A stretch of DNA of 64,000 bases, from the NCBI RefSeq assembly GCF_900168055.1, contig NZ_FUYS01000007.1, positions 124,001 to 188,000 on the forward strand, in the 5' to 3' direction. Positions 44,455-48,010 of the stretch are shown piece by piece (position 1 is the stretch's first letter; every line of letters starts with the position of its first letter). Position numbers and translations under genes: made by a program. Source of the stretch: Parapedobacter luteus (lineage in GTDB: Bacteria; Bacteroidota; Bacteroidia; Sphingobacteriales; Sphingobacteriaceae). The notes under the pieces were generated by a model, which ran no database searches, was not told where the DNA came from, and worked only from the letters and a program-made list of their open reading frames with translations.

Positions 44455-44778
44455 ATGAAAACTATATTTCGCCTTTTCTTTTTATCGGTCGTATTGTACG
44501 GTTGTCAGCCAACGGGAAATGCATCGGCACTCCAAAGCAGGGATTCCACCGCTACGAACCCCCCTATGGATTCCGTTCTGATGGCACTTTCAAGTACGCC
44601 AGATAGTTTAAGGACACCCGAAAAAAAGGAAACGATAAGGAAGATTCAATTGATGGTTGCTAAGTACGTGGAACTCAAAGACGGCATGTTTTCCTTTACT
44701 TTACCGAAAGAGGAATTTGTGGAAAAAACCGGCCTTGGTATCGAATATTATGATGTCATAACATTGCTGTCCACTTAA
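44455..44778 (+). CDS. Small lipoprotein of unknown function
   Basis: 107 residues from ATG 44455 with lipobox VLYGC (Cys at 17 of MKTIFRLFFLSVVLYGCQP). The mature part is helical and polar, with TPEKKETIRKIQLMVAKYVE and EEFVEKTGLGIEYYDVITLL. A start 51 bases upstream would spoil the signal peptide, so 44455 is chosen. It lies 84 bases before the Rpn gene on the same strand. No known function. Confidence 0.6.
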   Translation: MKTIFRLFFLSVVLYGCQPTGNASALQSRDSTATNPPMDSVLMALSSTPDSLRTPEKKETIRKIQLMVAKYVELKDGMFSFTLPKEEFVEKTGLGIEYYDVITLLST

Positions 44779-44862
44779 AAGATATTGAGGAACAGCAATG
44801 ATTGATTTTAATAGACTTGATCGTTTCACGCAAATATAAGTTGGAAATCTTAAATTTGTCCT

Positions 44863-45768
44863 ATGACCAATCCACAACAACCGAAAGTGGGCTTGTACAT
44901 TGACCCTCTTACAGATTTTGGTTTCAAAAAGCTCTTCGGAACCGAACCCAACAAGGACTTGCTCATTGCCTTGCTCAATAGCATTTTCCGCGGGCGCAAG
45001 AACATCGTTGATTTGACGTACAACAAAAACGAGCATCACGGCGAAACTAAGGACGAGGGGGCGGCCATCTTCGACCTCACCTGTACCGGGGATGATGGCG
45101 AGCGCTTCATTATAGAGGTGCAACGCGGCAAGCAGGGCAATTTCAAGCAGCGCGCCGTATTCTACACCAGTCGTCTTATCACCGAACAGGCACCCAAGGG
45201 CCGCCGCTCCGAGTGGGCCTATGACGTAAAAGAGGTATACCTCATAGCCTTGTTGGAAGACTTCACGCTGGACGCTATGGGTGACGGCCGCTATTTGCAC
45301 GATATTTGTTTGAGCGAGAGGGAGACAGGAAAAGTTTTCTACGATGGATTGGGGTATATATTCATCGAATTGGTTAATTTTGTAAAAACGGAGGATGAAG
45401 CCGAGACAGACCTTGAAAGGTGGCTCTATGTATTGAAAAACATGAGCAGCATGGATAAGGTGTCGATCTACACCCGCAAGCCGATTTTCGAGAAACTGTT
45501 TAACGTGGCGGAGTACGCCAATTTAACAAAGGAGGAAAAGGCCATGTATGATGCAAGTCTGAAACGCAAATGGGATAACAAAGCCGTGTTGGATTACGCG
45601 GTCAGCGAAGCCGTAAAGGAGGCTACTACTAAAACCCGCGAAGAAGAACGCGCTAAGGCAGAGGCAGAGAAACTGAAATCAGCCTTAAAGATGAAACAAA
45701 GTGGTTTTGATGTCTACATGATTGCAGACATACTTGAGTTGCCCGTGGAGAAAGTGGAAAAACTTTAG
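44863..45768 (+). CDS. Rpn-family nuclease (PD-(D/E)XK, recombination-promoting, transposase-like)
   Basis: 301 residues. The N-terminal 200 form a PD-(D/E)XK nuclease: LTDFGFKKLFGTEPNKDLLI, active-site D71 in AIFDLTCTG, and E85-V-Q87 in FIIEVQRGK. Such proteins are annotated Rpn or PD-(D/E)XK nuclease family transposase. The last 75 residues are a charged helical linker (EATTKTREEERAKAEAEKLK) and a small helix-turn-helix-like end (FDVYMIADILELPVEKVEKL). An internal in-frame ATG at 45544 is preceded by AAAGGAGG eight bases upstream and would give this tail alone (74 residues). A second copy of the tail follows at 45791. Rpn proteins act as toxic nucleases, and in E. coli the tail made from an internal start is reported to inhibit the long form. 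Confidence 0.87.
   Translation: MTNPQQPKVGLYIDPLTDFGFKKLFGTEPNKDLLIALLNSIFRGRKNIVDLTYNKNEHHGETKDEGAAIFDLTCTGDDGERFIIEVQRGKQGNFKQRAVFYTSRLITEQAPKGRRSEWAYDVKEVYLIALLEDFTLDAMGDGRYLHDICLSERETGKVFYDGLGYIFIELVNFVKTEDEAETDLERWLYVLKNMSSMDKVSIYTRKPIFEKLFNVAEYANLTKEEKAMYDASLKRKWDNKAVLDYAVSEAVKEATTKTREEERAKAEAEKLKSALKMKQSGFDVYMIADILELPVEKVEKL
45544..45768 (+). other. Possible internal gene for the Rpn C-terminal tail
   Basis: In-frame ATG at 45544 (Rpn residue 228) with AAAGGAGG at 45528-45535, eight bases before it. The 74-residue product MYDASLKRKWDNKAVLDYAV and onward is the same segment that is duplicated downstream. Bacteroidota rarely use Shine-Dalgarno sites, and the codons (LTKEEKAM) are conserved protein sequence, so the site could be chance. 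Confidence 0.4.
45589..45644 (+). repeat. 56-base direct repeat, copy 1
   Basis: Identical to 45836-45891 over 56 bases, starting TTGGATTACGCGGTCAGCGA, with near-identity continuing some 20 bases beyond. Offset 247 bp. It lies within the Rpn tail. Confidence 0.9.
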
Positions 45769-45790
45769 CGTCGCTTAATATGCCAGCCTT

Positions 45791-46027
45791 ATGATTGATA
45801 CCAGTCTAAAACAAAAGTGGGACAAAAAGGCTATCTTGGATTACGCGGTCAGCGAAGCCGTAAAGGAGGCTACTACTAAAACCCGCGAAGAGGAACGCGC
45901 TAAAGCCGAGAAAGAAAAGCTTGAAGAAAAACTGCGTTCTGCTGCCGAGTTCAAAAAAATGGGGTTGCCGGTTGCAGACATCGCCAGGGGCTTGGGACTT
46001 TCCATCGAGGAAGTGGAAAAACTTTAA
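45791..46027 (+). CDS. Free-standing second copy of the Rpn C-terminal tail
   Basis: 78 residues (MIDTSLKQKWDKKAILDYAV) that align with Rpn residues 228-301: the same SLKxKWDxKAxLDYAVSEAV block and coiled-coil linker, then a diverged end (EFKKMGLPVADIARGLGLSI). The nuclease domain is absent. It begins at an ATG equivalent to the internal ATG of the full gene, 22 bases after the Rpn stop, and is followed by a terminator. Either it is a remnant of a second rpn gene, or it makes a tail-only protein that could bind the nuclease. Which one is true is not decided by sequence. Confidence 0.6.
   Translation: MIDTSLKQKWDKKAILDYAVSEAVKEATTKTREEERAKAEKEKLEEKLRSAAEFKKMGLPVADIARGLGLSIEEVEKL
45836..45891 (+). 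repeat. 56-base direct repeat, copy 2
   Basis: Perfect copy of 45589-45644 within the second tail frame. Recombination between the two would fuse the nuclease to the other tail end and delete 247 bp, keeping the reading frame shift small enough to test. Confidence 0.9.
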
Positions 46028-46055
46028 TTTTCTGATTTAACATAAAGCATCAAAG

Positions 46056-46082
46056 CCATTCGCTATCAGCGGATGGTTTTTT
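46056..46082 (+). terminator. Intrinsic terminator after the Rpn unit
   Basis: CCATTCGC (46056-46063), loop TATCA, GCGGATGG (46069-46076), then TTTTTT. One T-G wobble in the stem. It ends plus-strand transcription 29 bases after the second tail. Confidence 0.7.
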
Positions 46083-46188
46083 GTCAAATAGAAAAGTCGT
46101 ACTGCAATATCTGTCAGGTGTTAGGTTTTTCGTGGATGCTCACAATGTTTCGCTAATGACGCCGGCGCAGGGATACGGGAGGGTTTTT

Positions 46189-46224
46189 AAAGGGGCTTTG
46201 GATGAAGGTTCAAAGCCCCTTTTT
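46189..46224 (+). terminator. Second intrinsic terminator, bidirectional
   Basis: AAAGGGGCTTTG (46189-46200) and CAAAGCCCCTTT (46211-46222) form a 12-pair stem with a 10-base loop and a T-run. The 106 bases between this and the first terminator hold no recognisable gene. It may mark the end of a lost gene, or stop minus-strand transcripts from the toxin region. Confidence 0.75.
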
Positions 46225-46291
46225 ATAATCCCATAATCAGTCAAATGCGTTTAATAGCTTATAAATCAATATTATATCGATTCTTTTTAAG

Positions 46292-46570
46292 CTAACTAAC
46301 CCATCCAGCTAAAACATCCAATTCGGTGCCACCCATATATTTCAAATCCCTAAATAAGCGTTTAAATCGTTGGTCATCTTTGCTATTCGTTGATTTGGAA
46401 ACTTTCTTGAAATCCTCAAATGAAGATGGGAGGCCGTAGTTTGTCAGGTCAATTTTTTGGATTTGTACAGCTTCCAAAATGAAGCGTTCAATGGCCGGAC
46501 TGATTTGGATGATATAGTGGGGACGGTTGTTATGCTTATGCAAAAAAAGTTTCCCCTTTGACCAGACCAC
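46292..46570 (-). CDS. Protein of unknown function, possibly frameshifted
   Basis: 92 residues (MVWSKGKLFLHKHNNRPHYI) with no known domain. The preceding 120 bases carry another protein-like stretch in a neighbouring frame (EGLSPLIWNTAKALEVERL, to about 46680), which meets this frame at GGTCAAAGGGG. One indel there would give a longer protein starting right after the zeta-type gene. So this may be the 3' part of a broken gene in the same transcript as the kinase. Confidence 0.4.
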   Translation of the reverse strand: MVWSKGKLFLHKHNNRPHYIIQISPAIERFILEAVQIQKIDLTNYGLPSSFEDFKKVSKSTNSKDDQRFKRLFRDLKYMGGTELDVLAGWVS

Positions 46571-46697: not shown

Positions 46698-47323
46698 CTA
46701 TTCCTTTCTTATTTTCGCTGCTATCGTTGGCATATGTACCAGTAACCAATCCGGTTGCTCATGAATGGGTAAAGCATCAATTATGTGCCCATTTTCTATC
46801 GCAACCAAGTCTTTATGGTCCGTTTCAGACGTGTCGACTACTTTTAGTGAATCAAATAAAGTAAAGCGGTCGTTTACCTGCCTTAAATTGCCGTAGAAAT
46901 TCTCTCTAAGGGTCAATGAATCCACGGAATGGCCTCCCTCGTTGGCACGGATAAGTACTCGATTTGCAGAAAGCGAAGGGTTATCCAAGCCGAAGAATAT
47001 CAAAGTACAAGATACCCCTGTTGTTTGAATCGCTCAATAACATGCCAGCTTTCATCCCGGGAAAAATGACCTTCATATGCAAAATCAGCACCTGTATCCA
47101 AAGCTTTTTCAACCAATGCCGAAAAATATTGTTCTACAAATTCAGATGCTTGCAATGTTAACTCCTTCTGGACGCGGAGACCCGATTTCCAAAGTTCGGT
47201 GCGCTTCTGCAGATATAATTTATCCCCGTCAAAAATATCGTTGATATGATCTGGAAAATATGGCAAACCGACCGTGGATTTTCCCGCGCCGTTAGAGCCT
47301 GTGATGACAAATAGGTTAGGCAT
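46698..47323 (-). pseudogene. Zeta-toxin-like kinase (AAA/P-loop, COG4185 type), frameshifted
   Basis: Two abutting frames make one protein of about 208 residues. The 5' part (47323-47000) has the P-loop ITGSNGAGKST and SRDESWHVIERFKQQGYLVL; the 3' part (47003-46698) goes on with IFFGLDNPSLSANRVLIRAN, which is the usual continuation after GYLV. The frames overlap at TTGA (47003-47000), and adding one base near 47002 would join them. Zeta-type kinases phosphorylate UDP-N-acetylglucosamine or related targets and are toxic; close relatives have unproven substrates. A small gene upstream overlaps its start. Probably inactive unless ribosomes shift frame here. Confidence 0.65.
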
Positions 47324-47602: not shown

Positions 47603-48010
47603 TTATTTCTTTTCCAGCAACTCCATCACGCGGCTGTTTATTTCCGTCACATTTTCAATCAGTTTCAGGATAGCGTCGTTTTGCTTTTCGTTCACTCCCT
47701 GAAATGTATGAAAGTTTGATGCATTTAATATCGTGGCGTTCTCAATTTCCTTAAATACGGCACCAGGAACCGACGAAATAAGTCTCAAAGGGTCAGTTTT
47801 ATATATTTTGGCAGCTTTTTGTATTAACTCGGTAGTGACTTTCCCCTTACCATTTTCAAGTTCAAGATATTCAGTTTCTTCCATGCCAAATTCTTGCGCA
47901 ATTTCTAGAGAATCCTTTCCAGCAATTTCTCTTCGTACAAAAAGCTCTTGTCCAAATTTTTCGTTATCCACGAAAAGATACTCTTCGCTTTTATCGGTTA
48001 TTCTGTCCAT
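47603..48010 (-). CDS. XRE-like helix-turn-helix regulator
   Basis: 135 residues. A helix-turn-helix of the Cro/XRE type lies at about 28-85 (ELFVRREIAGKDSLEIAQEF, LELENGKGKVTTELIQKAAKIYK). A C-terminal part of about 50 residues follows with the block FHTFxGxNEKQNDAILKLIENV and a coiled end. It is upstream of the small protein and kinase, 26 bases away on the same strand, and probably represses the set. A truncated paralogue of its C-terminal half lies just upstream. Confidence 0.75.
   Translation of the reverse strand: MDRITDKSEEYLFVDNEKFGQELFVRREIAGKDSLEIAQEFGMEETEYLELENGKGKVTTELIQKAAKIYKTDPLRLISSVPGAVFKEIENATILNASNFHTFQGVNEKQNDAILKLIENVTEINSRVMELLEKK

Follow-up and report, generated by a model that had tools for sequence, protein, structure and literature searches.

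The forward strand of a 64,000-nucleotide stretch of the Parapedobacter luteus genome (4.83 Mb; contig NZ_FUYS01000007.1, positions 124,001 to 188,000; hereafter the window) carries a gene for a predicted PD-(D/E)XK nuclease of the Rpn family, followed closely by a loose relative of its own C-terminal tail. The nuclease gene, rpnL (44863-45768, +), is an intact frame of 301 aa that matches PDDEXK_2 (PF12784; E 4.6e-77, 259 bits, cut-off 27.4) and TIGR01784 (E 5.7e-24, 85.4 bits, cut-off 52.1). Its residues D71, E85, and Q87 (E85-x-Q87), which we take to be the catalytic D...ExQ of an Rpn nuclease, are invariant in 13 aligned sequences, the window's included. Nested in rpnL is a frame of 74 aa (45544-45768, +), a predicted cognate antitoxin of the RpnS type given its arrangement, as in E. 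coli RpnS, and its conserved start; eight nucleotides 5′ of its ATG at 45544 lies an internal Shine–Dalgarno (SD) sequence, AAAGGAGG (45528-45535, +). A detached frame of 78 aa (45791-46027, +) begins 22 nt 3′ of the rpnL stop; it has no SD, exceeds the nested tail by one four-residue unit, and has another C-terminal end.

A first-pass annotation of this DNA had placed both frames and the SD sequence at these positions, and its description of the two tails was borne out by alignment. The detached frame aligns with rpnL residues 228-301 (74 aa) with a single insertion of four residues, exactly one unit, and its ATG corresponds to the internal ATG of rpnL. As had been claimed, the copies share a perfect 56-base stretch (45589-45644 in rpnL and 45836-45891 in the detached frame, both +), which is their longest identical run and was not attained in any of 10,000 column shuffles of the alignment, and their ends have diverged, with 86.5% identity in the first half versus 56.8% in the second. 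The detached frame also matches the C-terminal part of TIGR01784 at 26.8 bits (E 4.2e-06), short of that model's cut-off of 52.1. The Pfam family to which separate RpnS genes have been assigned, DUF4351 (PF14261), did not match the detached frame at E up to 1 and was not among the 25 families listed, out of 26, for 24 tails. Judged by its homology, this frame is a paralogue of RpnS that stands apart from the long gene, a kind already known from E. coli rpnE-ypaA.

A structural model of the 78-aa protein, built from 24 tails, predicts a long helix (residues 4-56) and two short ones (61-68 and 72-77) at a mean pLDDT of 72.5. With this model as query, Foldseek placed RpnA-S (7th0) at rank 2 (TM 0.70 by its own length, E 0.57), and a tail profile search placed it at rank 9 of 17 (E 0.0011), where seven pentatricopeptide chains and a 'CAP REPEAT' chain (5.5e-15) scored better. 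Structural support for a modeled RpnS fold is weak, and what carries the putative assignment is the homology with the Rpn tail.

Immediately 5′ of the detached start, 45758-45790 (+) may be a remnant of coding sequence (KNFSVA*YASL versus KLFNVAEYANL in rpnL). The nucleotide alignment of this segment alone is not significant (23 of 300 shuffles were equally good), and tandem duplication as proven by the remnant was set aside as weak. Downstream, a 12-bp perfect hairpin followed by a T-run (46189-46222, +) forms a possible terminator shared by both genes; a terminator scan of 44600-46300 listed none, its loop limit being 8 and the loop of this inverted repeat 10. Elsewhere in the window, a zeta-toxin-like kinase gene (46698-47323, -) apparently falls into two overlapping frames, of which one, the first, matches Zeta_toxin (PF06414) at 22.6 bits (cut-off 22.3) and the other matches nothing, and an HTH-like protein (47603-48010, -) has a match below its Pfam cut-off.

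The SD-marked internal start

Relatives of rpnL were gathered by a contig scan that gave 193, of which the best 80 were kept; together with the window they form 81 loci biased to close relatives. SD pairing energies were computed with a generic anti-SD, the host's own 16S 3′ end having been looked for and not found, and amount to -11.8 kcal/mol at the internal start 45544 and +1.2 kcal/mol at the detached start 45791. The internal start proposed in the first-pass annotation is conserved: 73 of the 81 loci have an ATG there (position 228 or 227), and in 68 of these 73 the pairing reaches dG <= -7 kcal/mol, a strength seen at 3 of the 273 remaining in-frame ATGs in these rpn genes. The Lys-Glu-Glu 5′ of the internal ATG is encoded by AAG GAG GAA, and GGAGG occurs in 62 of the 72 loci with KEE versus 8.7 expected from the codon use of the same genes. 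Among 79 two-fold columns, compared across 79 of the 81 genes (L121 and L141 dropped), the strongest two outliers are E224 (GAG in 69 of 79, z 10.1) and K223 (AAG in 62 of 73, z 8.6), followed by a next z of 5.7 and a median of 1.4; all of these z values are inflated by relatedness, and the rank is the safer statement. The putative start at 45544 is thus marked by a strong SD that is conserved in relatives.

Ribosomes of Bacteroidia mostly ignore the SD, according to a report (PMC9976891) that singles out rpsU as the only F. johnsoniae gene whose SD is obvious and describes an extended SD as needed for stimulation by bS21-depleted ribosomes. In such a class, the SD-marked nested start is the more surprising result of this analysis. 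The rpsU start of the window's genome pairs at -13.3 versus -11.8 kcal/mol for the rpn internal start. Searched genome-wide in this one genome alone, the pattern AAGGAGGN{5,10}ATG occurs 68 times versus 58 for the reversed pattern, which is no enrichment. Whether genomes with a strong rpsU SD also tend to have the SD inside rpn was examined in 25 hand-picked pairs from 24 genomes, and no such link was supported (Spearman 0.26, P 0.21; Fisher P 0.54). One literature search, which required most of its terms together, turned up no publication that connects Rpn with the SD in Bacteroidetes.

A phylum-wide sample contained a strong PF12784 match in 14 of 148 genomes. Of the 29 loci looked at there, 25 were alignable; the internal ATG is missing from all of these except L210 and L219, which belong to the window's family and have the ATG with a purine-rich site. 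Because of this absence among the 25 aligned loci from distant members of the phylum, the rpn SD start is, on alignment evidence, clade-specific.

Recurrence and selection of detached tails

The first-pass annotation had proposed searching other Bacteroidota genomes for rpn genes followed by tail-only frames, and such frames recur. A same-strand tail match lies within 1,500 nt behind the gene in 15 of the 81 loci and an antisense match in none; the upstream control gave a match in 2 of 81 (L116 and L164), with the full 1,500 nt present in 80 downstream and 75 upstream regions. Dropping L121, whose match is the broken gene's own tail, leaves 14 of the 81 rpn loci, window included, with a detached tail, and since L103 holds two copies, these loci contain 15 copies. 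Within the genus, G001, G002, and G003, out of nine genomes, likewise have an rpn gene with a tail match shortly behind it. A single event underlies the copies of the window and of P. composti (L086), with 96.6% identity over 2,684 columns across rpn and the start of the detached copy; in P. composti, the homologous sequence ends within the detached tail (L086:3996-4104), just before a tRNA-Ala gene, and the long rpn gene is frameshifted. Chance similarity or an assembly artefact, for which nothing spoke, is refuted by this shared sequence and by the like arrangement in 13 of the 80 other loci, and we leave it a negligible probability.

Eight of the detached copies are intact (the window, L091, L100, L104, L109, L113, L141, and L145). 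Another five of the 15 are decayed by truncation or frameshift (L086, the two in L103, L118, and L143), the L162 copy has no ATG at the expected place, and the L165 copy is partly masked. In L091, L100, the first copy of L103, and L113, the detached ATG lies at the third to twentieth base behind the long gene's stop. Detached starts are without an SD (dG -2.9 or weaker) in the window, L086, L091, L100, L103 (both), L113, and L118, and some or all of the SD is present in L104, L109, L141, L143, and L145.

Further tail-bearing arrangements were noted along the way. On another contig of the same genome, L007:1819-2750, a 243-aa frame that resembles the L055 Rpn by eye, without a Pfam match, is directly followed by a 66-aa frame whose tail module is that of the window's detached copy. 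Some rpn genes of the genus (L057 and L053) are split at approximately residue 169 into N-terminal and C-terminal frames, and two further decayed tails lie behind the split gene of L057. One genome of the family, G013, has 17 tail matches clustered on few contigs, an apparent Rpn expansion. In P. defluvii, a YhgA-like Rpn (PF04754; L056:2526-3452, -) carries a C-terminal tail module of the PF12784-Rpn kind, and because of this combination Rpn tails seem, from sequence comparison, to be shared between nuclease families. Carriage of the detached tail by phages or plasmids was rejected, as no match was found in sets of viral contigs (viral_contigs), phages, or plasmids; PADLOC gave no match for either the rpnL protein or the detached protein.

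Purifying selection on the tail frame, a check likewise proposed in the first-pass annotation, was addressed by dN/dS and by simulation, and both point to fewer amino-acid changes than in a neutral copy. Between copy and own long tail, dN/dS is 0.30 in the window and 0.03-0.45 across all seven computable pairs (L100 being saturated), with a median of 0.14 in 126 long-long control pairs. Simulation of neutral copies was rejected in seven of seven intact copies, most weakly in L091 (P 0.0075); the window copy has 22 nonsynonymous codons versus 36.0 expected if neutral, a deficit met in 0 of 400 simulations, and 86% of its simulated neutral copies acquired a stop codon. From the first 25 codons alone, neutrality is rejected in the window (P 0.02), L109, L141, and L145 and is not rejected in L091, L104, and L113. 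Part of the low dN/dS signal could be older than the detachment, should the end have come from a fused tail that was functional.

These results weigh on the view that the detached frame is a neutral relic, a fossil of rpn tail duplication or displacement kept open only by its youth. The broken copies elsewhere speak for it, as do the missing SD of the window copy and the possible, stop-containing remnant before it, and with decay this common the window copy may be a relic that has yet to break; the deficit of nonsynonymous codons in all seven intact copies, together with a length gap of exactly one four-residue unit, argues against it, and we consider a relic possible, if somewhat unlikely.

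Helix register and sequence exchange

Helix length differs between the detached copy and its neighbor in all 14 readable same-type Bacteroidota pairs. The register difference is +4 in the window, L103 (two), L104, L113, L141, L143, L145, L081, and L162, -4 in L109, -8 in L072 and L078, and -6 within the helix in L050; caution applies to L141, whose long gene is frameshifted, and to L072, L078, and L081, whose upstream partners are frames of only 97, 237, and 240 codons, respectively. In L091, L100, and L118, copy and long gene have wholly different tail types. In E. coli, the rpnE and ypaA tails are unequal in 22 of the 22 strains read, which were hand-picked from two listings and several of which share a combination; L202 (1 versus 4 units) and L266 (5 versus 0 units) were read from the sequences, outside the scripted scoring.

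Equal length is uncommon among Rpn tails in general: close long-long pairs agree in 19 of 131 control cases, and when 10 E. coli combinations were paired at random, 30% of draws held no match (P 0.30). Selective avoidance of a matching register is unsupported by these controls; detached copies fail to keep the neighbor's register, and no claim is made that matching is avoided.

The mismatch bears on function through a published test, performed on RpnC only, in which one repeat added to either RpnCS or RpnCLS abolished inhibition, which returned once both carried the extra repeat (PMC10327210). Because a one-unit mismatch sufficed there and the tails here are mismatched, the suggestion of the first-pass annotation that a tail had become its own antitoxin gene is disfavored. 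With 78 versus 74 aa, the window tails differ in unit number, and if the RpnC rule holds here the window copy is probably no inhibitor of its neighbor RpnL. That the detached frame is nonetheless a working second antitoxin of this RpnL, an extra dose of RpnS free of the internal SD, draws on the fact that E. coli ypaA does yield its product, RpnES (PMC10327210), on the intact window frame with its non-neutral changes, and on P. composti, a single case in which long gene and detached copy are both damaged, as if L depended on S. Against this stand the helix mismatch in every readable same-type Bacteroidota pair and every E. coli strain read, the loss of RpnC inhibition upon one extra unit, and the loci with a wholly different tail type; we regard a second antitoxin as clearly unlikely.

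The reservoir for switching tails, the other suggestion of the first-pass annotation, gained support from the mosaic make-up of the tails, from conversion-like tracts, and from E. coli strain C. Over the front 60 nt, the own long gene is nearest to the detached copy in 9 of 13 cases and ranks 2-3 in the other four, window included, and over the last 34 aa it is nearest in 2 of 8. For the window copy, the own gene ranks second of 81 over the front half, behind the P. composti orthologue, and 37th over the end, to which P. koreensis L107 is nearest. Identical tracts exceed shuffles (P < 0.02) in five of the eight pairs tested (the window, L091, L113, L141, and L145) and do not in L100, L104, and L109. 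Flanked on both sides by divergence, the 56-nt run looks like the product of recent gene conversion rather than plain duplication.

Tails of one type also occur in both loose and fused positions. The long gene of P. defluvii (L091) has another tail type than the loose copy, whose type is still fused in the rpn genes of P. koreensis, P. composti, and P. soli behind the same upstream frame. In E. coli strain C, ypaA is missing and the single RpnE ends with a ypaA-type tail; 15 further rows of the 40 E. coli rows listed have a single rpnE feature. For E. coli, Zhong et al. (PMC10327210) already describe deletion and fusion as ways in which rpnS is lost. Within Parapedobacter, represented by one genome per species, no tail switch was observed.

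Known systems and a proposed mechanism

The closest parallels are E. coli rpnE-ypaA (rpnES) and rpnC-rpnCS, in which a tail-only gene lies directly behind rpn and starts at the homologue of the internal start; this gene is reported to have arisen from its own neighbor (Zhong et al. 2023, PMC10327210). As in the window pair, E. coli ypaA differs from the neighboring tail by four-residue units. Unlike ypaA, which keeps an SD, the window copy is without one and has an end closest to another species' tail, and unlike the E. coli nucleases, which belong to the YhgA-like family, the window nuclease belongs to PF12784 and to Bacteroidia. The window locus also resembles nested RpnL/RpnS genes in its internal ATG with a strong SD at the start of the tail and in its modeled long and two short helices, and differs from them in being a predicted pair from a class in which the SD is described as mostly unused (PMC9976891).

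A further analogy is offered by polymorphic toxins. Orphan CdiA-CT/CdiI modules and Rhs tips are polymorphic C-terminal modules, left over behind a full gene and sharing a constant front through which recombination can occur. Unlike them, the window locus is without a delivered toxin or a separate immunity gene, and its loose module is an inhibitor-like tail.

Of what the first-pass annotation had proposed, the Rpn tail family, the conserved start, the recurrence, and the selection are supported, and the tail as its own antitoxin is disfavored. We give roughly even chances to an Rpn toxin–antitoxin gene accompanied by a second, detached, out-of-register RpnS module that serves as an orthogonal dimerization protein and tail donor. 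The RpnL nuclease would be inhibited by its own C-terminal tail, separately translated from the SD-marked ATG at 45544, a translation suggested by the conservation of that start. The detached frame, homologous to the tail region, would have been duplicated or displaced behind the gene. Without an SD, with one helix unit extra and another C-terminal end, its product would, by the RpnC rule, not pair with the tail of the neighboring RpnL. Having fewer amino-acid changes than a neutral copy and an apparent conversion-like tract exchanged with the long gene, the frame most likely encodes an orthogonal RpnS-like dimerization protein. The detached copy may also donate alternative tails by recombination, the least certain step.

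A further proposal concerns how the nested antitoxin is supplied. Ribosomes of the class keep their anti-SD hidden behind bS21, and the nested Rpn antitoxin of Sphingobacteriales would be among the few proteins started from a strong SD, its supply dependent on bS21-less ribosomes; a higher bS21 occupancy would then cut off the RpnS supply and set RpnL free. Phage-encoded bS21 is an example of what would raise the occupancy, and myoviruses that encode it are thought to infect mainly Bacteroidia (PMC9976891). Detached copies without an SD would escape this gate yet, being out of register, would not silence the neighbor. The weaker site of rpn compared with that of rpsU counts against the proposal because an extended SD is needed. 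We regard it as a long shot, and the link of the nested SD start to bS21 and phages is offered as a hypothesis only.

The register mismatch provides a direct test of detached tails as antitoxins, tail donors, or leftovers. Release of RpnL activity has been called 'a key unresolved issue' (PMC10327210), and if the nested Rpn antitoxins of Bacteroidia are indeed read from a strong SD, the bS21 state of the ribosome would become a candidate trigger of an anti-phage nuclease.
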